The position numbers were made by a program, and so were the translations under genes. Under the pieces are notes generated by a model. The model was not told where the DNA came from. It saw nothing but the letters and a program-made list of their open reading frames with translations, and did no database searches. This document shows, one piece after another, positions 1,257 to 26,777 of a stretch of DNA of 55,097 bases (positions are counted from its first letter, which is position 1; each line of letters starts with the position of its first letter). The DNA is from Verrucomicrobiales bacterium (GTDB lineage: Bacteria > Verrucomicrobiota > Verrucomicrobiia > Verrucomicrobiales > DEV007). The stretch lies in NCBI GenBank assembly GCA_028047635.1, contig JAOFXR010000016.1:1-55097 (forward strand), written 5' to 3'.

Positions 1257-1278
1257 TCCTAATAAATTCTCCGGCACG

Positions 1279-2397
1279 CTACCCCGCTTTCTCAGTCCGC
1301 GCGAGTGCGGCCTCACCTGAATTCCCTTTGATCGCTTTCACCACAAAAACGAAGGCCATCGCAAGTATCGCCAGTCCATTAATGACGTGAAAATTGGTGA
1401 TCCAAAAGTGTTTTCCTGTCGCAATAACGGTGAGCCCGAGAGCGATCTGAGCCGACAGAAGGACCAGTAAAAGAGTAAGGTGCTTTCCAATTCGAACTTC
1501 TTTTCTAAGCTTCAGCCACAGTGCGAGAACGAGTCCAAAAATACAAAAAGCCGTCCATTTATGAAGGAACAAGACGAGAATAATCGGCTCGTCAAATGCA
1601 GGAATCCATACGCCCGCGGTTTTAAGAAGATCGGTATCAGCCAAACCAACCCGATGAAAATGTCGCATTGATGCGCCACAAACCAGCTGAATTGAAGTAA
1701 GCGCTAAGAGCGATACCCCACCAATACGAATCAGCTTCAGAACGACTCGCGAAGCGGCGAATCCGCACTGCCCCCACCCAGTCCCCGACGCCATGACAAT
1801 AAGAACGAGGAGGCAGAAAAACGCTTGAGCAAGACAACCATGCAACACGGCGAACCCGTTCGAAATCTCGGTAACTCGAAGCCCTCCGAAAATCGCCTGA
1901 GTCGTTACCATAAGAAGGGCAAGAGCCGATAGTTTTTGGACGAGCGTCCAGGAACGCTTTATCCAGCTCCGGATTAACCAGACAAAAGGGATCACTCCCA
2001 GGCCGAGCCCGAGACCGAGAAGATTTGATTTCCTGCCCGGATCGCTTCGCTCCGCGCCAGCCATGATGAATACCGCAAAGATCACGGCCAGGCCAATGAC
2101 CACGATCAACATTTCGAAAAAGCTTTTTCCGCCGCGGATATAAGACCATGAGAACATTCCTAAAACGAGGATGCCTACGAGAGTCGCCAGCAACCGATGA
2201 CTGTGCTCCAAAAACGGCACCATATAACTGAGCCAGCCCGGTGGGTTGAGGGACCCAAGACTGAGCGGCCAATCGGCAAAGGCCATGCCGGCCAACTTGG
2301 TTGTCGTGGCAGCGCCCCACCAGATGAGGAGGACAGCGAAGAAGGCGACGAGCTTCGAGTATTTATTGAAGGCTGGCTGAGAAATTTGATTGCTCAT
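1279..2397 (-). CDS. ctaA: Haem A synthase
   Basis: CtaA/COX15-type haem A synthase oxidises the C8 methyl of haem O to the formyl group of haem A. The 372-residue protein has about eight membrane segments in two similar halves. Likely haem-ligand histidines are visible in EHSHRLLAT, LHGCLAQ, LHKWTA and FHVINGL, which fit the paired histidines of the family. It starts at the ATG at 2395-2397, 63 bases beyond the terminator that closes the oxidase operon, so it may have its own promoter. A TATAAT hexamer lies only four bases upstream of the start codon, too close for an ordinary leader. Haem A demand comes from the CoxA protein at 5702-7630. Confidence 0.92.
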   Translation of the reverse strand: MSNQISQPAFNKYSKLVAFFAVLLIWWGAATTTKLAGMAFADWPLSLGSLNPPGWLSYMVPFLEHSHRLLATLVGILVLGMFSWSYIRGGKSFFEMLIVVIGLAVIFAVFIMAGAERSDPGRKSNLLGLGLGLGVIPFVWLIRSWIKRSWTLVQKLSALALLMVTTQAIFGGLRVTEISNGFAVLHGCLAQAFFCLLVLIVMASGTGWGQCGFAASRVVLKLIRIGGVSLLALTSIQLVCGASMRHFHRVGLADTDLLKTAGVWIPAFDEPIILVLFLHKWTAFCIFGLVLALWLKLRKEVRIGKHLTLLLVLLSAQIALGLTVIATGKHFWITNFHVINGLAILAMAFVFVVKAIKGNSGEAALARTEKAG

Positions 2398-2518: not shown

Positions 2519-3283
2519 CTAGTTCTTTGGCAGAAGCGGGTTTTGAGCGGCATACCACTCGTCGAACTCCTCACTGCTAACCGCCTCTACATAAGCGACC
2601 ATCTGAGCGTGACCTGCGCCACAAAGCTGGGCACAGACAATATTCCACTCGCCTTCCTTCTCGGGAACGAACCACATCGGAATTTCCGAACCGGGAATTG
2701 CATCCTGCTGTGAGAACATTGGGACGATCGCAAGACCGTGGATCACGTCCTTCGATGTCACCTGAATCACAACCGGTCTTCCGACAGGCACTTTCAACTC
2801 GTTCACTGAAACAAAATCATCTGCCGCGTTCGGATCCTCTGCGACAAGGCCTACCGGGTTTGCCCCGGAAATCCGCTCGTGAGAAGTCAGTCCGACGTTT
2901 TTGTCAGCACCGGCGTAGTGGAAGGTCCAACGATATTGCTCGCCAACGGCGCGGAGGTTCACGACCTCATCTCCAACCGGACGGGCGTTTTTGTCAGCGC
3001 GCTTCGCCCAAAGTGGGAATGCGAAACCGAGGAGCAAAACTACTTCCACGATGACCACCCCAACCTCAATATGAGTGGAGAAATGCGAAGTAATACCGTG
3101 GTAACTGGCGCGAGGCGCCTTTTTACGGCGAAATTTCCAGAGGATAACCCCAAGAAATCCTGTCCATCCTACAAAGAGAAATAGCATGAACCAATGAATG
3201 AGCGCCAGCATGTGATTGCCCACGTGACCGTGTCGAGAGGCTATCTCATGCATGCCGGAGATGTCGTTAATCCATTCAATCAT
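2519..3283 (-). CDS. coxB: Cytochrome c oxidase subunit II (CuA)
   Basis: Subunit II accepts electrons from cytochrome c at its CuA centre and passes them to haem a in subunit I. The 254-residue protein has two N-terminal membrane helices (about 24-50 and 72-93) and a periplasmic cupredoxin domain. The CuA ligands are visible: His182 and then CAQLCGAGHAQM (Cys217, Cys221, His225, Met228). The position that is usually Glu and binds through its backbone is Gln219. There is no fused C-terminal cytochrome c domain, so this is not a caa3-type subunit II. Electrons must come from separate cytochromes, and the cluster encodes several. It is the last gene before the terminator. Confidence 0.95.
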   Translation of the reverse strand: MIEWINDISGMHEIASRHGHVGNHMLALIHWFMLFLFVGWTGFLGVILWKFRRKKAPRASYHGITSHFSTHIEVGVVIVEVVLLLGFAFPLWAKRADKNARPVGDEVVNLRAVGEQYRWTFHYAGADKNVGLTSHERISGANPVGLVAEDPNAADDFVSVNELKVPVGRPVVIQVTSKDVIHGLAIVPMFSQQDAIPGSEIPMWFVPEKEGEWNIVCAQLCGAGHAQMVAYVEAVSSEEFDEWYAAQNPLLPKN

Positions 3284-3766: not shown

Positions 3767-4135
3767 TTAGAGTTCTTCGGTAAGTTTTCCGTTGGTCGTT
3801 TCGTAAGTATCGTACTGCTCGCGAATCGGATCAGCACCGGCGAAAAGGGTCAACGCCATGAGACTAAGAAAAAACAGGAACGTGAATACCAGCATCTTGT
3901 AAACAAGGCCCTTCTCGTGATTCAAGTGCATGAAAATAAGAGCAACCAAGCTCGACTTAACACCTGCAATAGCGAGGCCAACCACAAAATCGGCAGGAGT
4001 TGGTCCCGGAGGCCCAAAGTCCAACCAGGGAACAAGACCAAGAGCGAGGGTGATACAGGTAAATACGCACAGAGCAATAAAGACAGCCAAGTAAGACTTC
4101 TTATGCTTTGCCCAGTCGTGAGTTGATTCAGCCAT
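3767..4135 (-). CDS. Cytochrome c oxidase subunit IV-like protein
   Basis: The 122-residue product starts MAESTHDWAKHKKSYL and has three membrane helices, as in prokaryotic subunit IV (CoxD/CyoD-like, Cox4 pro family), which stabilises the subunit I-III core. The ATG at 4133-4135 is preferred over a longer frame to 4213 that would run into coxC. Helices lie near 15-37, 45-68 and 76-97. The segment GVKSSLVALIFMHLNHEKG is typical of these small subunits, including the internal FMHL. It follows coxC by 20 bases. Confidence 0.85.
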   Translation of the reverse strand: MAESTHDWAKHKKSYLAVFIALCVFTCITLALGLVPWLDFGPPGPTPADFVVGLAIAGVKSSLVALIFMHLNHEKGLVYKMLVFTFLFFLSLMALTLFAGADPIREQYDTYETTNGKLTEEL

Positions 4136-4155
4136 GATGAGTGTTGAACGTAAAA

Positions 4156-5646
4156 TTAGAGAAGATACATGATCGGGAACAGGAAGATCCAGATCAGGTC
4201 GACGAAGTGCCAAAAGAGACCACCAACCTCAACCCGATTAGCAAGATGCTCCGGATTTTTGAGATAAAGCTTTTTGCCAAATACGGTGAAGAACAAGAGA
4301 ACGAGCGCACCACCGATAACGTGCAAACCGTGAAGTGCCGTCATCGTGAAATAGATCGCGTAATAGTTCCCGTAACGAGGTCCATGGTTACCCATGAACT
4401 TAATATCTTCGCGGGGGACCTTGATCGAGTGCTCACCACCGTGACCATGATCTCCATGTAAAGCTTCTTCGCGCTCGTGACCTGCTTCTTCAGCTCCCTC
4501 AGCCGATGGCTTAGGCTCGCTCTTGTGAACAGCATCGTGGTGATCATCTCCATGATCATCTCCATGGTGGCCACCGAGGTGAACATCGTGAAGGTTTAAG
4601 ATGTGACCGCGAAGCATCTTCTCGGGAATAACCTCTCCACGAGGCTCGTAATACTCACGCAGATGACGATACTCGGTGTCCTGTTGTTCGAAAAACTGCT
4701 GCTTAGCACCATCGTCATTGATGACATTCCAAACCATGGACTCACGCTGCTTCTGCGGAAGAACGAGTTGGAGGTCTACCTCATGCACGATGAATTCGAC
4801 ATCATCACTGATTAGTTTGCCTTCCACCTTTGAACCATCCTTAAAATTCACCACGCTATCACTGTGAAGAACCACTTTACGAGGATTTGCGTTGAGAACA
4901 AACGGCTCGCTTGACGTCAACTTTGCCGAGCTACTCACTGAAACCGGAGTAGGATTGGCGACACCGGATGCCAACTCTGAGCGGTAACGTTTACGCTCCT
5001 CAGTAAGTTTCCCGGAAATCGCTCTCCGCTCCTTGTGGAACCATGCTTTCAATTCGGAGTCAGAATGGAGCTCAACGCCCTCTTCCGAACCAGGCCCTTC
5101 AACTACTTTGAAAGTAGGAAACTCACCTTTGGGAATGCTCTTGATAAAAACAGGAACCGCTCCCTGAAGACTGACCGAGGCCGAAGTTCCCTCAAAGCGG
5201 ATCCGGTCGGTATTGTTAACCAAAGCACCCTCCATCACGGAGTTATCTTTCAACTTGATACCAAAGTGATGGTTGAGCTTACTGTTATACTCAATCCCCT
5301 TCAGGCACATGAAGACGACAGCACAACCAACCACCGCATACATATAGCGCTGATAAAGCTTCCAGTTTCTTTCCTTCAAGGCGACCCAGGCAAAAACCAC
5401 TCCCACTGAGGAAGCGATCAATACAAGGGTGTTGATAAATCCAAGCCAGACAAAGTCTTTATGAACATTGAGTCCCCAGGGCCAGGGATTATCGACTCCG
5501 TCTTGAATTCCGACTCGCAAAAACACGTAGGCGGAAAAGAGACCTCCAAACAGCATGACCTCGGAGGCGAGGAACAGCCAGATACCAAGCTTGGCGTTGT
5601 ACAACCCGGTGTCGCGTCTCGGCGTTACTTCGTGTGGAATTTCCAT
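4156..5646 (-). CDS. coxC: Cytochrome c oxidase subunit III with large extramembrane insertion
   Basis: Subunit III surrounds the catalytic subunit and stabilises the proton entry side. Residues 1-124 give the N-terminal helices, ending in KGIEYNSK. Residues about 425-496 give the last helices, with YFTMTALHGLHVIGG and FWHFVDLIWIFLFPIMYLL. Between them lie about 300 extra residues, so the protein has 496 residues instead of the usual 200-280. The insertion has a beta-rich, polar part (about 130-345) and then a stretch at 353-406 with 13 histidines among Asp, Glu and Gly. The frame is unbroken and both ends match the family, so it is an insertion and not an assembly join. The function of the added part is unknown; metal binding or partner docking are possible. 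Confidence 0.9.
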   Translation of the reverse strand: MEIPHEVTPRRDTGLYNAKLGIWLFLASEVMLFGGLFSAYVFLRVGIQDGVDNPWPWGLNVHKDFVWLGFINTLVLIASSVGVVFAWVALKERNWKLYQRYMYAVVGCAVVFMCLKGIEYNSKLNHHFGIKLKDNSVMEGALVNNTDRIRFEGTSASVSLQGAVPVFIKSIPKGEFPTFKVVEGPGSEEGVELHSDSELKAWFHKERRAISGKLTEERKRYRSELASGVANPTPVSVSSSAKLTSSEPFVLNANPRKVVLHSDSVVNFKDGSKVEGKLISDDVEFIVHEVDLQLVLPQKQRESMVWNVINDDGAKQQFFEQQDTEYRHLREYYEPRGEVIPEKMLRGHILNLHDVHLGGHHGDDHGDDHHDAVHKSEPKPSAEGAEEAGHEREEALHGDHGHGGEHSIKVPREDIKFMGNHGPRYGNYYAIYFTMTALHGLHVIGGALVLLFFTVFGKKLYLKNPEHLANRVEVGGLFWHFVDLIWIFLFPIMYLL

Positions 5647-5701: not shown

Positions 5702-7630
5702 TTAAACCGAGGACTCCTCACTCTCTTTATCCTTCTTGTCTTCCGAAGGGATCGTGGAGGGATCGTCTTCGAACTGCGGCGAGAAGTCACGTGCCTCACC
5801 CGGAACGCTGTATTCGTAAGGCCCGCGATAAGCAACTGGCTCTGTAAGAAAGTTTCCATGTGGTGGTGGCGTGGGTGTCGCCCACTCGAGTGTGGTCGCA
5901 TCCCATGGATTGTCACTGTTCACTTTTTTGCCAATAAATTTGCTGATGAAAAGATTGATGATGAACGGCACCTGGAAAACAGCCAACAGCCAGGCAGAAC
6001 CGGAGGTCACGATGTTCAAATCGATCATCCGAACCGCCGCGTCGGGCTCAATGACATTGAGCATTTCGCAAGCATTGGCGATGAACGTGTTAGGCTCAGC
6101 GAAAATCTGTGTGCTGATCTGCTCGTAAGCCTTACCTCCATCGAATGCGCGACGGTGGAAACCTGCCATGCCCTGAAAGAACATCGGAGCGAAAATTCCA
6201 TTCATGAAGATCAAAGAAGGCCAGAAGTGCAAGTGCCCAAGGCGTGTGCCCATCATCCGTCCGGTGATTTTGGGATACCAATGGTAAATCCCCGCAAAGA
6301 GTCCAAAAATTGTTCCCGGAGCAACCACATAGTGGAAGTGAGCAATCACGTAGTAAGTATCGTGAAGGTGCAAGTCAGGAAGACTGAATGCCAGCGGGAG
6401 CCCCGTCAGACCGCCGATACCGAACATTGGAATGAAGGCTGTTGCAAAAAGCATGGGGACATTAAACCGGATCGAACCACCCCACATGGAAATGAGGAGC
6501 GATGTGATCAATATCACCGAGGGCACCGAAATCAGGACTGTTGTTGTCTGGAAGAACGTGGAGATCGCCGGCCCCATACCCGTAATATACATGTGGTGGG
6601 CCCAAACAATAAAGGCTAGAAATCCAAGCACCATGACGGCATACACCATCGTTTTATACCCCCAGAGTGGTTTTCGCGTATTACACGGTATAATCTCGGC
6701 CACGATTGCGATCGCCGGCAAAATTAGAACGTAAACCTCAGGGTGAGCAAGGAACCAGAACAGGTGCTGATACAGTAGCGGACTACCACCCCCGGCAGCA
6801 TCAAACGCCATCCCACTGACATTGAGTCCGGTTGGAACGAAGAAACTCGTTCCTGCAAGACGATCCATCAGCTGCATGATCGCAGCAACCTCAAGAGGAG
6901 GGAACGCGAGGAGGAGAAGGAAACCCGTGACAAGCATCGCCCACACAAAGAAAGGAAGACGCATCCAACTCATCCCGCGGCATCGCAAATTGATAATGGT
7001 GCAGATAAAGTTGACCGCTCCTAGAAGAGAAGAGGTAATCAGCAGAGCCATCGCTACGAGCCACTGAGTCTGGCCCGTCCAAAAGAGATCGCCGTAGTGA
7101 ATATCGGTCGTCGTTGCAAGAGGAGAATAGTTCGTCCACCCCGCCTTTGCTGCGCCGGAAGGAAGAAAGAAGCTCACGAACATGAGAACGCCACCAAGGA
7201 GGTAGAGCCAGTAACTCGCCATGTTGAGACGTGGAAACGCCATATCGGGAGCACCGATCTGCAATGGAGTCACATAGTTACCAAAAGCACCAAACGCGAG
7301 CGGCACAATCCCGAGGAAAACCATGATGGTACCGTGCATGGCACCGAACATATTATAGAGGTCACCAGTCACCTTGCCACCGTCATCGAGCCACGCCTGG
7401 AACCAAGGCCAGTCAGCGAGCATTGGAACGGCACGATCCGGATAAGCAATGCTCCAACGCATCACCATCATAAGGAAAAAGCCAAACGCGAGAAATACTA
7501 ACGCAGTGAAGCCGTACTGAAGTCCGATGGTTTTGTGATCGGTGGAGAAAATGTATTTCTTCCAGAAAGGCTCAACATGATGATGTTCCTCGTGAGCCTG
7601 ATCGTTTGTTTCTGCTGTTGCTGCGCTCAT
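5702..7630 (-). CDS. coxA: Cytochrome c oxidase subunit I, A-type
   Basis: This is the catalytic haem a/haem a3-CuB subunit, which reduces oxygen and pumps protons. The 642-residue protein keeps the complete ligand set: His99 in GAMHGTIM (haem a), HPEVY with His296 and Tyr300 (the crosslinked pair), His345-His346 in WAHHMY (CuB), and the HDTYYVIAHFHYV segment with the haem a3 and haem a ligands. Glu in HPEVY and Asp in GAPDMAFPRLN indicate the A1 subfamily with D- and K-channels. It has a His-rich N-terminus (EEHHHVE) and a charged tail. It lies between the cytochrome c gene and coxC and is clearly functional, unlike the CcoN-like gene upstream. Confidence 0.97.
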   Translation of the reverse strand: MSAATAETNDQAHEEHHHVEPFWKKYIFSTDHKTIGLQYGFTALVFLAFGFFLMMVMRWSIAYPDRAVPMLADWPWFQAWLDDGGKVTGDLYNMFGAMHGTIMVFLGIVPLAFGAFGNYVTPLQIGAPDMAFPRLNMASYWLYLLGGVLMFVSFFLPSGAAKAGWTNYSPLATTTDIHYGDLFWTGQTQWLVAMALLITSSLLGAVNFICTIINLRCRGMSWMRLPFFVWAMLVTGFLLLLAFPPLEVAAIMQLMDRLAGTSFFVPTGLNVSGMAFDAAGGGSPLLYQHLFWFLAHPEVYVLILPAIAIVAEIIPCNTRKPLWGYKTMVYAVMVLGFLAFIVWAHHMYITGMGPAISTFFQTTTVLISVPSVILITSLLISMWGGSIRFNVPMLFATAFIPMFGIGGLTGLPLAFSLPDLHLHDTYYVIAHFHYVVAPGTIFGLFAGIYHWYPKITGRMMGTRLGHLHFWPSLIFMNGIFAPMFFQGMAGFHRRAFDGGKAYEQISTQIFAEPNTFIANACEMLNVIEPDAAVRMIDLNIVTSGSAWLLAVFQVPFIINLFISKFIGKKVNSDNPWDATTLEWATPTPPPHGNFLTEPVAYRGPYEYSVPGEARDFSPQFEDDPSTIPSEDKKDKESEESSV

Positions 7631-7706: not shown

Positions 7707-8444
7707 TTAGCCTTCAAGCGGCTCGCCCGTCTGCAGGTCTACTTTTGCCCCTGGAAGCATTTCACCCTCAGGAATCGCTAACAATTCGGATTCCAGATAG
7801 GGAACTGTCTGGCCGCTGAATTGCTCGCGTGCCGCCTTAATCATTTCAGTAGTGACTACGCCGTCTTCACCCTCGGGGAGACTGCCGAATTCACGTCGAA
7901 CATAAGAAATGACCTGAGCGATTTTCTCGTCGGGAAGCGTGTTCCATGCCGGCATCAAACCATTATAGGTCTGACCGCCCACTTTGAATGCTCCGCTGGC
8001 TCCGTGAAGAAGGATGGCACCAAGCCGAGTCGTTCCGCCGTCGACCCATTCGGATCCCACCAATGGCGGGAATTGACCGGGGATGCCCAGACCGGAAGCC
8101 TGGTGACACGCGATACAGTTGCCGTAAACTTTTTTACCGTCCTTGGCCCATGAATCAATCCAGGCCACTTCGGCGGCTTCACCAATGTCGCCGCCAAGAG
8201 AAGGACGGGGGGCTGCCTCGTAGTAATCAGACACATAAATGCTATCGCTAAACCCATTGGCGCCGCTAAACAACTGTCCCCCACCAAAGATAAGGACCAA
8301 TGCGCTGATCGCGATGATTGAGATACCCACAGTGCCGCTTCCTTCGCGAGGAAGGGCGTTCTCACGGCGAACGGAATCATGCAACTGAACCGTGCTCACG
8401 GTTCCCTGATCGTAATCGATGTTTTTGTTCTCGTTGCTCCCCAT
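7707..8444 (-). CDS. Membrane-anchored monohaem cytochrome c
   Basis: The 245-residue protein has a cytoplasmic N-terminus, one membrane helix (about 38-58) and a periplasmic class I cytochrome c domain with one CxxCH (Cys110, Cys113, His114) and a probable Met164 ligand in YNGLMPAW. A polar C-terminal extension of about 60 residues follows. Its position after the CcoN- and CcoO-like genes is that of CcoP, but CcoP normally has two haems and this protein has one. It lies directly upstream of coxA. Because CoxB has no fused cytochrome domain, this protein is a good candidate for the electron donor to CuA. That role is inferred from context. Confidence 0.85.
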   Translation of the reverse strand: MGSNENKNIDYDQGTVSTVQLHDSVRRENALPREGSGTVGISIIAISALVLIFGGGQLFSGANGFSDSIYVSDYYEAAPRPSLGGDIGEAAEVAWIDSWAKDGKKVYGNCIACHQASGLGIPGQFPPLVGSEWVDGGTTRLGAILLHGASGAFKVGGQTYNGLMPAWNTLPDEKIAQVISYVRREFGSLPEGEDGVVTTEMIKAAREQFSGQTVPYLESELLAIPEGEMLPGAKVDLQTGEPLEG

Positions 8445-8481: not shown

Positions 8482-9102
8482 TTAGCTTCCGCTGACGACC
8501 GCACTTGGTATTTTCTGATCTTTCTTCAAAGACATCAGATAATCGACCAAAGCTTCGGCTTTTCCTGTCGGAACATAACCATCATCAATGGATGACTTTT
8601 TGTATAAATGTTTGTAAGCAGGCATTCCAGAATCAGGATCGAGTCCCCTTGGATCAGCCAAATGCTGATGCATCACTTCACGTGATTTAATACGATGCCC
8701 AACGTTAGATAGATCCTGTCCGATGCGCTGATAGCCTAACATCGCGACTTTTTCTGTCGCATAATCGCCGGGATGTGTTTCACGGGCGAGTCCCTCCTCT
8801 TCGCGGCCGCCCCATCCAGGCCTCCACATATCAGGCCCGGCATAAGTGGGTCGAACGACTTGCGTGTGGCAATAGGCGCAACCTTCAGCTGCGTAAATCT
8901 GACGACCGTAGTCGCTGGAGCCATGACGCTGCAAAGCCTTATCAGGATAAGCCGCAATGCCTTCCACTCCGTCAGCCTCTGTGTAGGGCACAGGCTTTGC
9001 ATTCGACATCTTGATGAAAGGAATAACGATGAGGAATAGCCAAGGAAGTGCGAATACCACGCCTAAAGCGCCGAGTAACTTCCAAAATTTGTTTGAACTC
9101 AT
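8482..9102 (-). CDS. CcoO-like monohaem cytochrome c subunit
   Basis: The 206-residue protein resembles CcoO (FixO), the cytochrome c subunit II of cbb3 oxidases. It has one N-terminal helix (about 10-31) and a single haem motif GCAYCHTQVVRP (Cys75, Cys78, His79), where the QVVRP tail matches the CcoO signature (usually CHSQMIRP). Further matches are the GREEEGLARETHPGDY region, LGYQRIGQDLSNVG and a likely Met ligand in SGMPAYKHLY. It lies 32 bases downstream of the CcoN-like gene. The family is clear and the haem site intact. Because its CcoN partner is inactive, it probably passes electrons to another acceptor and does not feed a cbb3 active site. Confidence 0.85.
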   Translation of the reverse strand: MSSNKFWKLLGALGVVFALPWLFLIVIPFIKMSNAKPVPYTEADGVEGIAAYPDKALQRHGSSDYGRQIYAAEGCAYCHTQVVRPTYAGPDMWRPGWGGREEEGLARETHPGDYATEKVAMLGYQRIGQDLSNVGHRIKSREVMHQHLADPRGLDPDSGMPAYKHLYKKSSIDDGYVPTGKAEALVDYLMSLKKDQKIPSAVVSGS

Positions 9103-9134: not shown

Positions 9135-10595
9135 CTAGTTAAGACCAGCAGCAGCCTTGGCACTTTCAACCTTGCCCGGTTCAGCATGAATCAAAGTTGG
9201 ACCACTGGTCTTACGCCCTTTCCCGATAAACATGAGAGCAAGCTGGTAAAGGAACAGAAAATTCGAGAACGAAATGAGAGCCCAGGCAATGCAACGTCCG
9301 GCGACATAGGCCGAAGAAGTGACGAATGAGGTAGAAAACGCCTGATTCCACTGGGAGAGACTCCCACCCTGGGCAATACCTCCAATCAGCATACAGACTA
9401 CCAAGGTAATGATGCCGTAGGTGCTGAACCAGAAGTGAGTTCGGATACGCTTGCCGGAAGGCCACTCGTTGCCGGTGATACGCGGCACGATAAAATAGAT
9501 CGCCCCGAACACTGTCATCGAGAAAAAGCCGTAGAAAGCGAGGGTATCGAGTCCTACCACGAAGTGACTGAACTGAAGGCTCTTGCCGAAAATATACGTC
9601 GAGCTCATCGCCGAAAGAAGACCGTAAACGGCGAGCATCAGCATTCCGAAAACCGTAAACCGAAGTGAGGGACTGAACTCCCAGATTTTAGTAGCCCCCT
9701 TCAAGGTCATGAGCAAATTCACAACGGTCACAATGATCGCAAGCAGAATGAAAATAGAAGCCGTACCGCTGACAGCTGACATCCAGGCAGGGAAAGGACC
9801 TCCCATGTACCGAGCAAACCCTGTCCAACCCGAGAGCGCAGCGAGAATCCAGAAGCTTACCTGAGCCAGCGGGTAACTGAAAATCGCCCGTCCGGTGATC
9901 TTCGGGATAATGTAATAGGCGATCGCGAGAGCAATCGGCGCCATCCAGAAGTAGGAGAGATTAGTGATAAACCAAGCACTCGCTCCAGCTGCCATGACCG
10001 GGGCAGTTCCTTTATTGATAAGGAGATTTGCTGTAATGAAGATCCAGGGAAACCAAACAACAGCCCCCAGGACAAACATCTCGGAGACGTAGATGAGCGA
10101 CTCACCGCGCGAGCGGAACATCGGCAAAATCCAAACGACGACTAATGCATAGGCAATCGCCATGATAGGCCAGACCCAGGCAGGAAAATCAAGAAGTGGA
10201 ACCGAGTTACCGAAACCGAACCATACAGTCACCACCGAAAGAGTAACCCCTGCATTCCAAAGCGCTCCGGCAACAATAAGAGCCACGGGATGCTCAATCT
10301 TATTGCGACTCAGGCGAGCCATTAGCCACAGAACGACTCCGAGCCCGGCTTGCATTGCCCATCCGTAAACGAGAGCGTTCATGTGCGCCGGAAAGAGGCG
10401 ACCATAACCCATGAACTGGCAGTTATCCCAAAGTCCGGGAACACACAATTTCAATGAGCTGAAAAAGCCCAGCAGCGTTGCAACCAGGAGCCATGCAGCT
10501 GCACTCGTAAAGAAAAACAGCACGGGAAAGCGGGCGGAGCGATCGATCGCTGCTCTCTCGCTCATTTCCTCAGGCGTTGGTTGTTCAGATGTCAT
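9135..10595 (-). CDS. CcoN-like subunit I homologue lacking catalytic metal ligands
   Basis: The 486-residue protein has the 12-helix layout and many conserved positions of cbb3 subunit I (CcoN): GRLFPAHMNALVYG near residue 65, YYIIPKITGRAIFSYPLAQVSFW near 227-249, and the FYGFFS and YFIVPRITG segments. Only five histidines are present. Against a remembered P. stutzeri CcoN, His71 (a low-spin haem ligand) is kept. The CuB ligands map to Thr211, Ala261 and Arg262, the crosslinked Tyr to Ser256, the haem b3 ligand to Leu352 and the second low-spin ligand to Phe354. It therefore cannot reduce oxygen. A structural, quinone-binding or electron-transfer role is likely. It sits between ACIII and the intact A-type oxidase. 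Confidence 0.85.
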   Translation of the reverse strand: MTSEQPTPEEMSERAAIDRSARFPVLFFFTSAAAWLLVATLLGFFSSLKLCVPGLWDNCQFMGYGRLFPAHMNALVYGWAMQAGLGVVLWLMARLSRNKIEHPVALIVAGALWNAGVTLSVVTVWFGFGNSVPLLDFPAWVWPIMAIAYALVVVWILPMFRSRGESLIYVSEMFVLGAVVWFPWIFITANLLINKGTAPVMAAGASAWFITNLSYFWMAPIALAIAYYIIPKITGRAIFSYPLAQVSFWILAALSGWTGFARYMGGPFPAWMSAVSGTASIFILLAIIVTVVNLLMTLKGATKIWEFSPSLRFTVFGMLMLAVYGLLSAMSSTYIFGKSLQFSHFVVGLDTLAFYGFFSMTVFGAIYFIVPRITGNEWPSGKRIRTHFWFSTYGIITLVVCMLIGGIAQGGSLSQWNQAFSTSFVTSSAYVAGRCIAWALISFSNFLFLYQLALMFIGKGRKTSGPTLIHAEPGKVESAKAAAGLN

Positions 10596-10629: not shown

Positions 10630-11046
10630 TTACTTCTTGGCTTCGGGTTCCGCTTTGGCAGCAGGTTTAGCCGGAGCGGATTTCGCTTCAGCAGCAGGCT
10701 TGGCCTCAGGTTTAGCCGCAGCCTCCATCTGCTTCAAAAACGTGGGAGAACCAGGCACCACAATGTCGGTCTTGGCTGGTTTTGCAGCAACTTTCGCCAC
10801 TGTCTTCATCGCCGCAGCGATTTTATCTTGATCAACTGCCTGAGCCTCGGTCACCGATTTCAAGTTATCCCAGCGTGCCTGAGTTGTCGCTTCGTCGAAA
10901 TCACCGCGAGCAGCGCGATCTTCGAGGGAATCGCTTCCCGCATACTGAAAAAGAATCAGCGCTAAAAAACCAAAAAACACAAAGATGCCAAGCGTTCCGA
11001 AGAAGCGCTTCACTTTTGACTCTGAAATGGGAGATGAATCACTCAT
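10630..11046 (-). CDS. Single-helix protein with Ala/Lys/Pro-rich tail
   Basis: The 138-residue protein has one membrane helix at about 16-35, then a soluble part (EDRAARGDFDEATTQARWDN) and a low-complexity tail from about residue 100 rich in Ala, Lys, Pro and Glu. It has an ATG start, lies 29 bases downstream of actF and 34 bases upstream of the CcoN-like gene, and is in the same orientation, so it is part of the operon. No family was recognised. The join between the ACIII and cbb3-like blocks suggests a linking or assembly subunit; this is inference. Confidence 0.6.
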   Translation of the reverse strand: MSDSSPISESKVKRFFGTLGIFVFFGFLALILFQYAGSDSLEDRAARGDFDEATTQARWDNLKSVTEAQAVDQDKIAAAMKTVAKVAAKPAKTDIVVPGSPTFLKQMEAAAKPEAKPAAEAKSAPAKPAAKAEPEAKK

Positions 11047-11075: not shown

Positions 11076-12593
11076 TCAGTTCACGACGTTAAGGGACTCA
11101 TCGAGACGAGGGTCACGACACGGAAAGAGACTTGCTGATCCAAGACGCCAGAGCAGGAAGAAAACAAAGATACCGGCAACTGAAACAAAGGCTAGAATAT
11201 CGAATAAGAACGCCCAGGGCATCACCATCAGCATTTCACTCGGGGGACCACCTGCGGTAAGCGAAGGCCCACGCTCAGGAATGATGATCCAGTAAATGTC
11301 GAGAACGTGCATACAGAGGTTCCAAACCGCCACCGCCGAAAGCACGAGAGGTAGTTTCTTCACTTTCTGAATCAATAGAATCGAGAACGGGACGAAGAAG
11401 TGCCCCACGACGAGGAAAGTAATCGTGTAGGTGTTCCAAAACTCGGTATTACGAGTGAGGTAGAACTTCGTCTCCTCAGTAATGTTCGCATACCAGATCA
11501 GAAAGAACTGAGAGAAAGCGATGTATGCCCAGAAAATCACGAAAGCGAGCATCAGCTTACCCATGAGATGATAATGCTCAACCGTCACGATATTTTTGAG
11601 ATAGCCAAAACGGCGGAGAATCGTAATTAGAATCACGAGCAAACCCATTGAGTTGAGCGCCGCTCCAGCAAAAAGGTACACGCCCCACATGGTCGAGAAC
11701 CATGTGTAGTCGAGGGCCATGAGCCAATCGAATACAAGAAAGGTCCAGGCAGTTGCAAAGAAAGGAAGAAATCCGCAGCTCGAACGACGCAACCAGAGAA
11801 ACTGATTCGGATCCCCGGTCTTGTCCATACCCACAGACCAGCGGCGCAGCATGAGAGAAATACCAGAGAGCGCGATGAAGTAAAAGATGAAGCGACCATA
11901 CCAGGCTCCTTCGTTGAGATAACCCTTTTTGACGTAAAGCAAGGCCTCCTCTTTCTGGAAACTCCTGTTTAAGAGTGTTTCGTGCACCGCATCCTCAGAA
12001 AGGTCCTGCTCGATCAGCTTCGAGGCTTTCGTTTTGAGAGAATCGATTTTGCGCTCAAAGTGAGCCCTATGGCCGGCACTGGGTGCCTCAACCGCCGCAA
12101 GCTCAGCTTCTGCCGCCGCAACCGCAGCTTCAGCACCCGCAATCTCAGACTGCCTTTCAACTACATACTGCGCCGCGCCCTCTTCAGCAGCGGCTTCTGA
12201 TTTCTCAAGGGCCGCCTCACGCTTTGGAAACCACTCCCAGAGGGAGTCTTGGTATCCGTTGGGAATCAGAAACGGTAGCGCCAACAGAAGCAGGAACGGA
12301 ATCAGACTGCCCAGATTCTCCATCAGACGGCGAATCACCGTTCCCCACCCTGAGTTAGTCGCATGGTGCAGCAGTGTCCAGAAAACTCCCCCAACCGAAA
12401 GGGAAAGAAAGAAAACTACTGCAAAGAGCCAACTGTATGACATCTCACCCCGCTTCTCCGGAAGAAACAAGTTGAGCAACAAGAAAACCAGTAGCCCACC
12501 AAAACCGACGAGGCCAACCCCTACCTTGAGGATAAAGGGATTCTTGAAGAATTCCCCATCCTTAAAATCGTCGCCATCTTTTAATCCCGCCAT
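11076..12593 (-). CDS. actF: Alternative complex III subunit ActF
   Basis: ActF is the second large membrane subunit of alternative complex III, an NrfD-related helix bundle that packs against ActC and oxidises quinol. The 505-residue protein has about ten helices and ends with the family tail DPRLDESLNVVN. Between helices at about 92-111 and 232-250 there is an Ala/Glu-rich stretch (about 124-225) with heptad-like spacing, including AAVAAAEAELAAVEA, which predicts a helical or coiled-coil loop longer than I expect for ActF. It lies 29 bases downstream of actE. The assignment rests on order within a complete actA-F set together with the tail and helix pattern. Confidence 0.85.
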   Translation of the reverse strand: MAGLKDGDDFKDGEFFKNPFILKVGVGLVGFGGLLVFLLLNLFLPEKRGEMSYSWLFAVVFFLSLSVGGVFWTLLHHATNSGWGTVIRRLMENLGSLIPFLLLLALPFLIPNGYQDSLWEWFPKREAALEKSEAAAEEGAAQYVVERQSEIAGAEAAVAAAEAELAAVEAPSAGHRAHFERKIDSLKTKASKLIEQDLSEDAVHETLLNRSFQKEEALLYVKKGYLNEGAWYGRFIFYFIALSGISLMLRRWSVGMDKTGDPNQFLWLRRSSCGFLPFFATAWTFLVFDWLMALDYTWFSTMWGVYLFAGAALNSMGLLVILITILRRFGYLKNIVTVEHYHLMGKLMLAFVIFWAYIAFSQFFLIWYANITEETKFYLTRNTEFWNTYTITFLVVGHFFVPFSILLIQKVKKLPLVLSAVAVWNLCMHVLDIYWIIIPERGPSLTAGGPPSEMLMVMPWAFLFDILAFVSVAGIFVFFLLWRLGSASLFPCRDPRLDESLNVVN

Positions 12594-12622: not shown

Positions 12623-13246
12623 TTAGTTACCGGAAGCCGCTTGCAGAGACTTCACGTATGAAACAATAGCCCACCTGTCCTTGACCGGAATCACACCGTT
12701 GTAAGGTCCCATGAGCCCTTTGCCATGAGTAATCGTGGAAAAAATTTGACCCTCAGGCATCGCTGAAACGCGAGCATCAAGCATATTGGCGGTGGGAGGA
12801 ATCGCCCAATATTTGGAAACGATGCCCTGCCCGTTCCCCGAATCACCGTGGCACGGCGTGCAGAAAACCTGGTAACGCTCCTGACCACGCTTAACCAGAG
12901 CTGGTGTAAGCTCCACTTCCTTGGGGTATCCTTCCCCATAGTTGTCACCAAACTGACCTGTGCTGGCATAACCATCGCCACTGGAATATTCAAGATCACT
13001 GCCTGTATTCCCGTCATTCCCTGCATGAGGAAGGGAATAACCGAGAGGAACTGTCCCGGAGACCGGCTTCTGCGCCGCTTGTCCGTCTGCGAAAAACTCA
13101 CTCGGCTCCTGAGGACGAAGCTTGTACTGATGGTCCATATCAGGGAACAGCTCAAACGGAGGGTCCGAGAACTTCTCACCACGTGGCCCGATCGCATAAA
13201 TCGTCGCGACCATCGCAATTGCTAAAACTAGAAAAAACCAACGCAT
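12623..13246 (-). CDS. actE: Alternative complex III subunit ActE, monohaem cytochrome c
   Basis: ActE is the monohaem cytochrome c of alternative complex III, taking electrons from the ActA/ActB side to the soluble or oxidase-bound acceptor. The 207-residue product starts MRWFFLVLAIAMV at the ATG at 13244-13246, with AAGG eight bases upstream. A longer frame to 13312 would overlap actD by more than 50 bases. After the anchor there is a 100-residue linker and then YQVFCTPCHGDSGNGQG, the single CxxCH, with a probable Met ligand in KGLMGPYNG. Typical c-type features such as VKDRWAIVSYVKSLQ close the domain. Confidence 0.88.
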   Translation of the reverse strand: MRWFFLVLAIAMVATIYAIGPRGEKFSDPPFELFPDMDHQYKLRPQEPSEFFADGQAAQKPVSGTVPLGYSLPHAGNDGNTGSDLEYSSGDGYASTGQFGDNYGEGYPKEVELTPALVKRGQERYQVFCTPCHGDSGNGQGIVSKYWAIPPTANMLDARVSAMPEGQIFSTITHGKGLMGPYNGVIPVKDRWAIVSYVKSLQAASGN

Positions 13247-13259
13247 TGTGAAAACCTTG

Positions 13260-13817
13260 TTAGTAAGCAACCTCCTCGATTTTCGAAGCACCGATCTCTT
13301 CGAGGAACTCACGGGTTCTTTCCCGCTTGAACTTCGGATCGCGCGCTTCGATTACCATGATGAACCCATCATCGGAAAACTTCTGGAAGAGACTTGAGTT
13401 AAAGAGAGGGTGATTCCAGCGCGGCAGCATCATGAGGCCAAGGAGACCGAACAAAGTCGCAAAACCGGAAAGGAGAATCGTAAGTTCGAATGTGACCGGG
13501 AAAAACGCCGGCATCGTAAAGAGATTCGTCGGCTTATCCTGAACAATCGTTGGGTAGAGCGAAATCTGGGTAAACAACTGCATAAACAGAGCAATTGAGA
13601 AACCAGCAACACCTCCACAGAGGACAAAAGCCGACAACCAGCTTTTCCCTAATCCCATCGCATGGTCCATGCCGTGAACGGGATAAGGCGTATGGACGTC
13701 CCAACGGTTAAATCCCCCATCGCGCACTTTTTCGGCGGCATGATAGAGATCCGTCGCATTGGCAAATTCTGCGACATACCCGAAAAGGTTTTTTGAACTG
13801 ACTGATGAATCACTCAC
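13260..13817 (-). CDS. actD: Alternative complex III subunit ActD (DUF3341)
   Basis: ActD is a two-helix membrane subunit of alternative complex III from the DUF3341 family. Residues 8-45 (LFGYVAEFANATDLYHAAEK and DVHTPYPVHGMDHAMG) give the typical soluble N-terminal part; the helices lie near 54-78 and 100-130, with PRWNHPLF after the second. The 185-residue length is normal. It starts with GTG at 13815-13817, 27 bases after the actC stop, with GGGA nearby, and no ATG gives a better fit. No cofactor motif is present, as expected. Confidence 0.9.
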   Translation of the reverse strand: MSDSSVSSKNLFGYVAEFANATDLYHAAEKVRDGGFNRWDVHTPYPVHGMDHAMGLGKSWLSAFVLCGGVAGFSIALFMQLFTQISLYPTIVQDKPTNLFTMPAFFPVTFELTILLSGFATLFGLLGLMMLPRWNHPLFNSSLFQKFSDDGFIMVIEARDPKFKRERTREFLEEIGASKIEEVAY

Positions 13818-13844: not shown

Positions 13845-15287
<1,443 letters not shown>

Positions 15288-15322: not shown

Positions 15323-18300
15323 TCAGTGCATTTTCGATGTCACTGTGCCGATTTGGTCAGCACCCGGCATCTTTGGATTCGGGTTCTTAATACGAGCAAG
15401 ATAACTCGTCCTCGGACGGGTGCCGATATACTTCAAAAGGTCGTAGTTGCGAGGATTTTTCTTCGCATCATTGATTTTATCGCCCTTCGCTTTCAGGTTA
15501 CCAAACGAAATCGCTTCAGCTCCACAGGCATCCTGACACGCTACTGTAAACGAGTTCGCCTTCACCTGAACATCATCAGAGTCGCGGGCTGCCGCTTTCG
15601 CCGCAATTTTCGCAGCACTAATCCGCTGAACGCAATAGGTACACTTCTCGATAACACCGCGCATACGAACCGTAACATTCGGGTTCTTCTGCAACTGCTG
15701 AGTGGTCGTCGCATTCCCTTCAGCAGGAGCAAGGGGTCCCAACTCAATCTTATCGATCGGGCGCTTGTTGTAATCGTAATAATTGAAACGACGCGCCTTG
15801 TAAGGGCAGTTATTCGCGCAGTAACGTGTCCCGATACAGCGATTGTAAGTCATCGCGTTCAAACCATCAGAGGTGTGAACCGTAGCATTTACCGGACAAA
15901 CCGTTTCACAGGGAGCGCTCTCACACTGCTGACAAGCAACAGGCTGCGAGATCATCTCAATTTGATCATCATCGACCGTTCGCTTGCCGGGAGTGTCTTT
16001 CGTAGATTCAGCACCAACAAGATAATCAAGAGGCCCACCTCGCTCAGAAATCACCTCATTGTCCTTCGGACTGGTGAAGTAGCGATCCATCCGAATCCAA
16101 TGCATCTCACGACCCGCAAGCACCTGATCTTTACCAACAATCGGGATATTGTTCTCAGACTGACAGGCAATGACGCAAGCGTTACAACCAATACACGAAT
16201 TGAGATCGACGGTCATCGCCCACTGATGAAGTGGATCGACACGGAATTCATGCCCCGGAAGCTGCTTGATAAACCGATTTTCGGGCTGAGTTCCGCCGTT
16301 TTCGTAATCAGCGCCCTCGTAAAGAGACATATTTTCAGGGATATGATGATCCATTCCCTGATGGCCAGCGAAATCGCTGTGCTCCTTATACATCTCAACC
16401 GTGCCTTCACGGGCGATGGCACGACCTTCCATGCTGTAGTGCTCAGCCGTCAATGCCAACTGGTTGGTGCCGCCCGCCTTGCGAACCGTCACACCACCTA
16501 CCACATAAGACTGATTAGAGGTCATCAATGGATACGCATTGTAGCCCACACCTTTGCTAACCGTTCCTTCAGCAAGATTCCCGTAATATCCGAGTGCAAT
16601 CGTAATCGCAAAATCAGCATGACCGGGAGCAGTCAATACCGGAGCAATCACCTTGCGGTCACCTGAAACAATCTCGATGAGATCCTCGTTCTCAAGCCCC
16701 AAAGCCTTCGCCGTAAAAACACTGACGAGCGCCGCATTATCCCAAGTCAATTTTGTGATGGGATCAGGCGCCTCTTGAAGCCACCCATTGTTGGCAAAAC
16801 GGCCATCATAGGTGGCGCTGCCAGAGACGAGAGATACTTCGAGACCCCCCTCATGAGGAAGATCAGAGATTTCAGCCCCCTCAACCAATGGAGCCGCAGC
16901 GGCCACGTTCACCGCCGCAACCGTAGGAGCCATCTCAACCTCAGCCGCAAAACCATCACGGAGGGCATCATTCCACTTCTTACCACCTGCGGATGCGAAA
17001 GACTTTTTGACTCGCCCGAGAAGCGCTTCCTGTGAAGCATCATCAGCGAGGAGAGAAAGAAGAAAGGCATCATCAGAAACACCACCCCACATCGGATTGA
17101 TCATGGGCTGCTGAACCGAGTAAACCCCGGAAAGACTGAGGCAATCACCCCAGGTCTCGAGGTAATGCGTTTTCGGAACGTGCCAGTCAGCGAGCTTCGT
17201 CGTTTGATTCTTCGAAAATCCCAGTTGAACCAGCGTCGGCACCTTGGAAAGAAGCTTCTTCAGCTCCAGATCAGAAGGAGCATCAAAAGCGAGATCCCCC
17301 TCATTCATCACCACCAAAGTTTCGACGGCGCCGGACTTCAGATCAGACGCCAAAGCAGCCACATCAGCAAGCCCAGGAAGCACGTGCTTACGCACCGAAA
17401 TAATCCCACCAAACGCTCCGAGCGCATTATTGATGGCAGCAACCAGAGCATGGACCGCAGCGGACTGGCGACCGCCGGCCACTACTACTGAAGCTCCTTT
17501 GGAAGCGAACAAATCAGCCGCGCACTCCTTAATCCAATCAAGGCGATAAACAGACGGGACTGCCTTCTTGAGCGCCTTTTTTGCCAGCACCCCAAGAGCC
17601 ACATCACCTGAAAGCGTAGCCACCTCGGCCGCAATCAGAGCTGATATCGGGAAGATTTGTGAAGCAGGAGTGCGATAGCGATGATCCGCCATTCCTCCCG
17701 TTAGAGTAAACGCCGACTCAGCCACGTAAAGACGGCTAATGTCAGGATTTTTCTCAACATTCCTAGTCGAAGCAAATTCACGCAGGGGATCTTCGCCAAT
17801 CACCTCATCACCGAGAAAATCGCAATCGAGCGACAAGACGCGCTTCGCCGTCGAAAAATTAACCACTGGCACAGCCCCTTTGCCGTGAACCAAATCCGCA
17901 GCCTCACGACTACCAACCTCGTCCAGCGCACCATACCCATAGAAGCGCACCCCTGGAAATGCCGCCTGAACCTCTTTGATCAGCGCGTGGCGCGTGGGAG
18001 ACGTCGACTGCGACAAGACCAACCCCAACTTTTCACCTGTAGCCGCTGCCCTCAGAGGAGCCAAAACAGCTGTATTGAAGGCTTCCGCGGTTGAAGGCTT
18101 ACCACCCTCGAAATAGCCACGCGAGCGATCCTGGTCATACATATCAAGCACTGAAGCTTGAGTAATCGCAGATGAACCACCGGTGACAGCAGGATGAAGA
18201 CGATTTCCATCGACCTTGGTAGGGCGACCCTCAAAAGTAGTGACGACAAGAGGGTCACAACCGATACCGCTCAAGCGGGGTTTCGCCGTAGAGTAGTAAA

Positions 18301-18583
18301 GCGCTTTACCCGGAATCACCCACTCGACGTGCTCGTTGTAGGGGACCAAGTGCTGCAGAGGACGCTTACAGGCAACACCAAAACCAGCGAGAGCCGTCGA
18401 AGCTCCCATTAACTTCACAAAGCTGCGTCGCGAAGTCTCATCAAGCTCAAGCTCTTGAGCCCCCTGAGGAAATTCACGCTCGAGCCAACCTTCAAATTCT
18501 TTCGAACCCTCAAGCTCCCCAAGGCTTCTCCAGTGAGCCCGTGAGCTCTCAGTTTCTGCAGGATGATTCCACTTTCGCTTCAT
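15323..18583 (-). CDS. actB: Alternative complex III subunit ActB, iron-sulphur protein
   Basis: ActB is the large periplasmic subunit of ACIII. The 1086-residue protein starts with a variant TAT signal (SRRSFVKLMGAS near 51-62) preceded by WRSLGELEGSKEFEGWLEREFP, as in TAT-variant-translocated molybdopterin oxidoreductases. Residues about 70-750 form the molybdopterin oxidoreductase-like part, which in ACIII has no molybdenum cofactor. Residues about 797-1020 form the ferredoxin part with four clusters: CIGCNACVIAC, CQQCESAPCETVC, CIGTRYCANNC (one Cys fewer, so a likely [3Fe-4S]) and CTYC with CQDAC. Electrons from quinol pass through it to ActA and ActE. All four clusters look intact. Confidence 0.95.
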   Translation of the reverse strand: MKRKWNHPAETESSRAHWRSLGELEGSKEFEGWLEREFPQGAQELELDETSRRSFVKLMGASTALAGFGVACKRPLQHLVPYNEHVEWVIPGKALYYSTAKPRLSGIGCDPLVVTTFEGRPTKVDGNRLHPAVTGGSSAITQASVLDMYDQDRSRGYFEGGKPSTAEAFNTAVLAPLRAAATGEKLGLVLSQSTSPTRHALIKEVQAAFPGVRFYGYGALDEVGSREAADLVHGKGAVPVVNFSTAKRVLSLDCDFLGDEVIGEDPLREFASTRNVEKNPDISRLYVAESAFTLTGGMADHRYRTPASQIFPISALIAAEVATLSGDVALGVLAKKALKKAVPSVYRLDWIKECAADLFASKGASVVVAGGRQSAAVHALVAAINNALGAFGGIISVRKHVLPGLADVAALASDLKSGAVETLVVMNEGDLAFDAPSDLELKKLLSKVPTLVQLGFSKNQTTKLADWHVPKTHYLETWGDCLSLSGVYSVQQPMINPMWGGVSDDAFLLSLLADDASQEALLGRVKKSFASAGGKKWNDALRDGFAAEVEMAPTVAAVNVAAAAPLVEGAEISDLPHEGGLEVSLVSGSATYDGRFANNGWLQEAPDPITKLTWDNAALVSVFTAKALGLENEDLIEIVSGDRKVIAPVLTAPGHADFAITIALGYYGNLAEGTVSKGVGYNAYPLMTSNQSYVVGGVTVRKAGGTNQLALTAEHYSMEGRAIAREGTVEMYKEHSDFAGHQGMDHHIPENMSLYEGADYENGGTQPENRFIKQLPGHEFRVDPLHQWAMTVDLNSCIGCNACVIACQSENNIPIVGKDQVLAGREMHWIRMDRYFTSPKDNEVISERGGPLDYLVGAESTKDTPGKRTVDDDQIEMISQPVACQQCESAPCETVCPVNATVHTSDGLNAMTYNRCIGTRYCANNCPYKARRFNYYDYNKRPIDKIELGPLAPAEGNATTTQQLQKNPNVTVRMRGVIEKCTYCVQRISAAKIAAKAAARDSDDVQVKANSFTVACQDACGAEAISFGNLKAKGDKINDAKKNPRNYDLLKYIGTRPRTSYLARIKNPNPKMPGADQIGTVTSKMH

Positions 18584-26708: not shown

Positions 26709-26777
26709 TGGGATGGAGAATTGTAATTTAAAAGACAACCGAAACCCTTAGCCTTCCAAAGCCGGTCGATTTCATGT

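Follow-up and report, generated by a model that had tools for sequence, protein, structure and literature searches.

A CcoN-like protein stripped of its catalytic ligands is encoded beside ACIII in Verrucomicrobia

Results

An oxidase fold without its ligands

The gene at 9135..10595 (minus strand) of the window, by which we mean the whole 55,097-nucleotide stretch of DNA analyzed here, encodes a full-length protein that has the fold of subunit I (CcoN) of cbb3-type oxidases and is stripped of its catalytic ligands. The COX1 Pfam model, phmmer, Foldseek, and a ligand read-out together define it as a CcoN-like protein without CuB, b3, and one low-spin haem ligand. Its open frame specifies 486 amino acids, among them five histidines (71, 102, 344, 387, and 470). 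The protein belongs to the haem-copper oxidase superfamily according to the Pfam COX1 model (147 bits, above the gathering score of 34.8), and it scores below the cut-off of the NCBIfam ccoN equivalog (104 bits; cut-off, 583). Its best PDB matches in phmmer were the CcoN chains 9g6b_A (8.4e-22) and 3mk7_A (E about 1e-21). When an AlphaFold model (28 input sequences; pLDDT 82.9, pTM 0.88) was compared by Foldseek, chains of the cbb3 structure 3mk7 matched best, with TM 0.84-0.88 over ~450 columns. The first-pass annotation had described a CcoN homolog over most of its length with five histidines and had proposed the modeling; Pfam, phmmer, Foldseek, and the alignments confirm the homology, and the model returns the cbb3 fold.

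The ligand positions were read with three MAFFT strategies from the window protein and 10 relatives, seven of these intact. All three strategies agree on H71, T211, S255, A261, R262, L349, and T351, which correspond, in the same order, to H60, H207, Y251, H257, H258, H347, and H349 of Pseudomonas stutzeri CcoN. We take H60, Y251, H347, and H349 to be the haem and Tyr positions; the numbers of the CuB histidines are those given in PMC3578206. On the minus strand, the alignment places Thr211 at the first CuB His position (codon 9963..9965), Ser255 at the cross-linked Tyr position (9831..9833), Ala261 and Arg262 at the CuB His-His pair (9810..9815), Leu349 at the haem b3 His position (9549..9551), and Thr351 at the second low-spin haem His position (9543..9545). 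The sole ligand kept is His71 at the low-spin haem position in TM2 (10383..10385), so that one of the six histidines of the haem-copper oxidase sextet is present. The CuB residues had been mapped exactly in the first-pass annotation. Its calls of loss at the Tyr, b3, and second low-spin positions also stand, but its residue numbers there were one to three off (Ser256, Leu352, and Phe354 for S255, L349, and T351). Judged by these residues, its description of a catalytically silent oxidase fold is supported.

Gene order in the window

The minus-strand order is actA-B-C-D-E-F, a small protein, ccoN-like, ccoO-like, cytochrome c, coxA, coxC, coxD, coxB, probable ctaA, and ctaB, with intergenic gaps below 80 bases except around coxB (124 and 486). 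The ACIII genes encode ActA, assigned by position and haem count (18623..19384; five CXXCH motifs); ActB, with a molybdopterin-oxidoreductase-like and an Fe-S domain by NCBIfam (15323..18583); ActC of the NrfD family (13845..15287; PF03916); ActD (13260..13817; PF11821, 193 bits); ActE, a mono-haem cytochrome c recognized by position and motif (12623..13312); and ActF, placed by position and without a Pfam match (11076..12593). The act genes lie directly upstream of the ccoN-like gene: 29 bases separate ActF from the small gene (10630..11046), and another 34 bases lead to the ccoN-like gene. The small protein has one hydrophobic stretch, an Ala/Lys/Pro-rich tail, and no Pfam match; it has relatives at least at L020, L093, L096, and L155.

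Downstream, the CcoO-like partner (8482..9102) is a mono-haem cytochrome c with a hydrophobic N-terminal stretch and its CAYCH motif kept; it matches the FixO Pfam model (56 bits) and scores below the cut-off of the NCBIfam ccoO equivalog (66 bits; cut-off, 201). The next gene (7707..8444) encodes a CcoP-like mono-haem cytochrome c with CIACH kept (Pfam Cytochrom_C, 39.7 bits; ccoP model, 30 bits, below its cut-off). Subunit I of an A-type oxidase (CoxA, 5702..7630) is intact: it matches Pfam COX1 with 430 bits, falls below the cut-off of NCBIfam CtaD_CoxA (546 bits; cut-off, 671), and carries AMHGT, HPEVY, HHM, and HFHY, which we take to be the ligand motifs of this subunit. Both the gene order and these motifs bear out the earlier placement of the ccoN-like gene between ACIII and an intact A-type oxidase. 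Subunit III (4156..5646) has 496 amino acids, with a long His-rich insertion that divides its COX3 Pfam match into two stretches. It is followed by subunit IV (3767..4213; NCBIfam caa3_sub_IV) and by subunit II (CoxB, 2519..3283; NCBIfam CoxB, 135 bits; cut-off, 148), which has no CXXCH and carries a motif that is presumably of the CuA type. A membrane protein at 1279..2397, without an NCBIfam match, is by its position probably the haem A synthase CtaA, and 339..1316 encodes the haem o synthase CtaB/CyoE (TIGR01473, above cut-off).

Elsewhere in the window, a 1573-amino-acid frame (22017-26738) has no Pfam match at E 1e-4 and adjoins two proteins with pilin-type N-methylation motifs (19620-20306 and 20325-21377). 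A PSCyt1-PSCyt2-PSD1 protein, a planctomycete-type cytochrome c domain architecture, is encoded at 44623-47319.

Intact and lost relatives

A first scan of genome contigs returned 28 relatives, one of them a fragment, all verrucomicrobial. None of the 28 loci had a stop in the matched frame, and each of the 27 readable ones kept one or two of the seven ligand residues. The same positions are therefore lost in the orthologs of ACIII-cox clusters, the comparison that the first-pass annotation had proposed, and a recent mutation of this one copy is ruled out because all 27 share the loss.

A wider search applied the ccoN model to 288 genomes of the phylum and the family alignment to 384 of the class; 100 regions were fetched, and 28 further genomes were read at the matched loci. 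With frames under 250 amino acids excluded, stand-alone CcoNO and other C-type groups left out, and one copy (L128) set aside, the comparison set comprised 115 copies. All seven residues (HHYHHHH) were present in 41 of these, and zero to three in the other 74 (none in 12, one in 52, two in 7, and three in 3). Among the lost copies, the b3 His and the Tyr were each gone from 73, and all three CuB histidines from 61. The replacements read HTSARLT in the window, HSAQKFI in Akkermansiaceae-type copies, AHSSRRW and QQGRHQQ in other lost groups, and HHGQHFI in a further genus. Both low-spin ligands were retained in five lost copies (L088, L090, L136, L148, and L159), and one family reads HNSQRYH, with both kept. 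The copy set aside, L128, has one ligand changed (a CuB His to Arg, WWFARN) and the other six kept; this could represent either an early stage of loss or an error.

His71 is indeed the only ligand kept in the window, as first annotated. It is no firm remnant, however, because a congener from the window's own genus (L155) has Phe in its place (FSASRMV) and, of the 74 lost copies, 47 retain the TM2 His and 27 do not, which weakens the case for a conserved haem site there. His344, considered as a substitute ligand, was ruled out, since it is missing from the Akkermansiaceae-type relatives.

An act gene was found within the stretch read at 38 of the 41 intact loci and at 70 of the 74 lost loci; the other four lost loci begin near a contig end, and three intact copies (L126, L127, and L130) lie away from ACIII. 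The operon actABCDEF-ccoN-ccoO-cytC, with or without coxACDB, is widespread in the class. The window protein groups with the ACIII-linked copies, apart from stand-alone CcoNO, with 100% SH-aLRT in trees of 95 and 105 rows. In the 28 further genomes, all 28 copies beside actF were lost; these had been picked among lower-scoring matches, and the count gives no frequency estimate because low score and loss go together. The same search also returned two stand-alone intact CcoNO (L188 and L189). Downstream coxA was missing within the stretch read, which for some copies ends with the contig, in 25 of the 74 lost copies. Raw counts for adjacent coxA (31 of 51 lost rows and 5 of 35 intact rows) suggest a link between loss and an adjacent aa3 oxidase; a test on independent pairs (four pairs) gave it no support.

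Three further arrangements were seen. One genome (G568) carries two copies (loci L147 and L148): one is lost and adjoins ACIII, and the other is intact, has a ccoO of its own, and shows no act gene within the 12 kb read. Family f82 has CcoN-like copies in three genomes without an ActD match (G330, G423, and G481), and the one read (L130, G481) is intact, apparently an oxidase of this clade that operates free of ACIII; the ancestral or intact protein therefore need not work with ACIII. Four MAGs labeled Akkermansia muciniphila, a seemingly doubtful label (L023, L024, L026, and L029), carry the ACIII-oxidase operon, with 41% identity to the window protein.

Selection and conserved columns

All dN/dS values (Nei-Gojobori) are rough, as several dS exceed 1. 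Between the window and its nearest relative (L002), dN/dS was 0.022 for the CcoN-like gene and 0.020 for both CoxA and ActC. Of 16 lost pairs, one had saturated dS and the other 15 ranged from 0.016 to 0.242; five intact pairs gave 0.029 to 0.179. All lost frames read were 461 amino acids or longer. By these measures, the CcoN-like gene is retained under strong purifying selection. The reading of the first-pass annotation, an intact frame that is retained and not decaying, is borne out by the L002 comparison and the stop-free loci of the first scan.

Intact copies share 154 conserved columns. In lost copies, 52 of these are still at least 90% conserved, and conservation is given up at 38. The latter include every ligand position but that of H71, as well as 68 (Arg), 207 (Trp), and 341 (His). 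Also among the 38 are five glycines of intact relatives that are larger residues in the window (G39A, G215Y, G328S, G353A, and G438W), which we take as a filling of the haem sites. The wider clade of the window (rows win, akk, and f3; n = 41) has newly conserved Gln341, Trp438, and Asn445 in place of the His, Gly, and His of intact copies, and has Arg or Lys at position 262 in 39 of 41 rows. Gln341, Trp438, and Asn445 possibly form a new site.

Repeated loss

Trees were built without the ligand columns. Grouping all lost copies into one clade was rejected by the AU test (p = 5.5e-6; 42 rows, 17 lost), which rules out a single loss event; lost copies are interspersed with intact ones, so loss occurred more than once. 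In four trees, one lost copy (L089) is nested with support within an intact group. In genus g31, L135 is intact and L095, L153, and L154 are lost, a mixture that either loss within the genus or gene exchange would explain. Parsimony gave five changes on the 105-row tree (L128 scored as lost), four on the 42-row tree (without L128), and four on a 100-row tree under a simpler model (with L128). The number of losses is uncertain because the 100-row tree draws many fast-evolving lost copies together; in it, the lost g31 copies are no longer near their intact congener. Our best estimate from these trees is four losses, with two as a safe minimum.

Partner cytochromes and other oxidases

The cytochromes next to lost copies keep their haem motifs. 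CXXCH is present in all 73 CcoO-like proteins found by position, and the 74th (L105), which was mis-bounded, has CASCH. The adjacent cytC has CXXCH in 73 of 74 cases, the exception (L020) being masked by a run of N. At the 49 lost loci with downstream coxA, none of the 44 CoxB found contains CXXCH, and all 29 complete ActA at lost loci with coxA have five. Since CoxB has no CXXCH and ActA has five only, neither known ACIII-oxidase bridge is present, which makes the CcoO-like/cytC pair the natural bridge candidate. At eight loci (L101, L104, L106, L107, L109, L111, L112, and L119), an extra mono-haem cytochrome c gene lies between actF and the ccoN-like gene; its product is a second candidate bridge cytochrome.

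A census of other oxidases included 71 genomes with a read, lost copy. Another COX1-family match, a class that can include NO reductases, occurred in 70 of them, and the 71st (G311) has a bd oxidase. Among 30 censused genomes with a read intact copy, that copy is the only COX1 match in two (G001 and G289). No bd oxidase was found in G001, and G289 has weak bd-like matches. Because the intact form is the sole COX1 match in G001 and no bd oxidase accompanies it, it is probably a working oxidase there. One further genome (G146) has a single COX1 match; it was left out of the ligand counts together with G099 and G187. In G265 (contig 1, 1393761-1394304), two short adjoining matches to part of cytochrome bd subunit I lie in different open frames, possibly a broken gene.

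Methanotroph-like genomes

PF02461, the AMO/pMMO subunit family, was found in all 10 tested genomes of family f5, which for this reason is probably the family of verrucomicrobial methanotrophs. The CcoN-like proteins of the five f5 genomes read (G042, G054, G265, G323, and G329) have SESSHFV or ADAAHQT at the seven positions; that is, they are ligand-less. At the two long loci read from these pmoA-bearing genomes (L194 and L195), the order is actF, the CcoN-like gene, ccoO, cytC, and coxA-C-D-B. Five genomes (G042, G054, G072, G152, and G265) are outside the 86 that match the ccoN model in the 288-genome set.

In the parts consulted, a review places a cbb3-type oxidase immediately next to ACIII in verrucomicrobial methanotrophs (PMC8498564), a genome paper links the cbb3 gene of methanotrophic Verrucomicrobia to high O2 affinity (PMC6688271), and another source has both aa3 and cbb3 genes next to ACIII (PMC11102522). 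Should f5 indeed be the methanotroph family, the gene that these publications treat as an ACIII-linked "cbb3 oxidase" is apparently the ligand-less one. The intact ACIII-adjacent form is already in print, as a gene order, under the name of a C-type oxidase (PMC8498564, in part). We found no report of ligand loss in ACIII-linked CcoN in the portions of the open-access literature covered.

Discussion

Ligand loss, purifying selection, and retention of the c-haem motifs are demonstrated at the level of sequence; from gene order alone, we infer contact of the CcoN-like protein with ACIII or CoxA. On balance, we favor the view that a former oxidase persists as a membrane platform, itself devoid of cofactors, for c-type cytochromes, which would pass electrons from ACIII to another oxidase. 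The ancestor would have been subunit I of a cbb3-like oxidase whose genes shared an operon with those of ACIII, and this oxidase would have become redundant for O2 reduction where another oxidase was present. With the catalytic core lost, the CcoN-like protein is predicted from its sequence to bind neither haem b nor Cu, and it may stay on as a membrane seat that docks the CcoO-like protein and cytochrome c on ACIII, as the gene order suggests. Electrons would then pass from quinol through the Fe-S/haem wire of ACIII (ActB, ActA, and ActE) and the c-haems of CcoO-like/cytC to CuA of the adjacent aa3 oxidase. An adjacent aa3 oxidase cannot be the end point in every case, because 25 lost copies have no downstream coxA in the stretch read; in such cases, the electrons would go to another oxidase of the cell. 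The CcoO-like/cytC module would thus replace the cytochrome bridges reported for other ACIII-oxidase pairs.

Taken as history, our somewhat preferred account is that ACIII captured a whole oxygen reductase, that several verrucomicrobial lineages independently turned it into a cofactor-less, cytochrome-carrying subunit, and that the ACIII-adjacent "cbb3" of methanotrophs is no oxidase. Among the roles that the first-pass annotation had offered (structural, quinone binding, or electron relay), c-haem retention in two partners points to a cytochrome anchor or relay; a quinone role has no direct support. The newly conserved Gln341, Trp438, and Asn445 are not predicted by a passive platform and count against a purely passive scaffold.

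A purely structural or assembly subunit of ACIII, its c-haem partners being kept for other reasons, is an unlikely alternative that nevertheless has some claim. It fits the act gene read at 70 of the 74 lost loci, with the other four beginning near a contig end, and the window-L002 dN/dS, which is as low as that of the neighboring genes; the CcoO-like subunit, too, could be retained for assembly alone. A structural role leaves the persistence of both c-haem motifs beside lost copies unexplained, and the f82 copies without an ActD match, the one read being intact, indicate that the ancestor could live without ACIII. It is less probable still that the old oxidase core took on a new quinone-binding or ion-translocating role. 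The conserved residues of the window's wider clade, including Arg/Lys262, would allow a new polar site there, but the replacements at the ligand columns differ between lost groups, leaving no shared new site family-wide, and the putative quinol site of ACIII is assigned to ActC in the consulted part of PMC5928083.

We consider it very improbable that haem is still bound, for example on H71, or that unusual ligands make the protein a divergent oxidase or a sensor. The TM2 His does persist in many lost copies, low-spin haem may persist in the five with both low-spin ligands, and NO dismutases, in which Asn takes the place of one His, are held to be functional (PMC3413370, in part). The window protein, however, is without five of the six haem/Cu histidines and the Tyr, its congener has Phe at the H71 position, and nearly every censused genome with a lost copy has another COX1-family match. 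Ligand loss alone would be expected of a decaying gene, but a pseudogene is ruled out by dN/dS (rough as the values are, with several dS above 1) and by the length of the lost frames, and a sequencing or assembly artefact is contradicted by the occurrence of lost copies both in MAGs and on a contig of 2.48 Mb (L195), so that this last reading can be dismissed.

If the platform reading is true, the "high-affinity cbb3 oxidase" annotated beside ACIII in verrucomicrobial methanotrophs is no oxidase. Homology-based "cbb3 oxidase" calls beside ACIII, on which arguments for a high O2 affinity of methanotrophic Verrucomicrobia have been built, need a ligand check. An oxidase fold has here outlived nearly all its chemistry, more than once. 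Intact and dead copies occur in the same kind of operon, and both states occur in one genus; they form a natural series in which to study the functions of the oxidase fold beyond O2 reduction and the way ACIII hands electrons on.

Comparison with known systems

The window protein resembles CcoN of cbb3-type (C-family) oxidases (PDB 3mk7) in fold, at the TM values given above, and in its mono-haem CcoO-like partner next door. It differs from CcoN in having 23% identity, no CuB, b3, or Tyr ligand, and one of the two low-spin histidines, and the window has a mono-haem cytochrome where cbb3-type oxidases have CcoP. CcoP of cbb3 oxidases is a di-haem protein. Closer still is the ACIII-linked C-type oxidase of verrucomicrobial methanotrophs and Opitutaceae, with the order actABCDEF-ccoN-ccoO-cytC (PMC8498564, in the part citing Refojo 2010), and 38 of the 41 intact loci read are of this kind. 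Unlike that printed oxidase, the window copy and those of five pmoA-bearing genomes are without catalytic ligands.

As in the ACIII-caa3 and ACIII-aa3 supercomplexes of Rhodothermus marinus and Flavobacterium johnsoniae, ACIII is paired with an A-type oxidase, a pairing known here from genes alone. In the available part of PMC5928083, electrons enter the R. marinus oxidase through a cytochrome c domain of subunit IIc, a domain whose place appears to be taken in F. johnsoniae by an additional cytochrome c domain on ActA; in contrast, neither the subunit II nor the ActA cytochrome bridge was seen at the lost loci. The name CcoN does not occur in this ACIII supercomplex paper. Domain B1 of ActB, described there as a molybdoenzyme fold with no prosthetic group, is a precedent inside ACIII itself for a former enzyme fold without cofactor, although it derives from a molybdoenzyme and not from an oxidase.

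Among haem-copper oxidases, whose six histidines are called the superfamily signature in the relevant section of PMC3413370, NO dismutase (an unusual qNOR) is likewise a member with a replaced ligand. Unlike the window protein, it loses one of the six histidines and is held, in the same section, to stay catalytic. CcoN4 of Pseudomonas aeruginosa is similar in being an extra CcoN outside a full cco operon; unlike the window protein, it is described in part of PMC5697931 as an orphan catalytic subunit.
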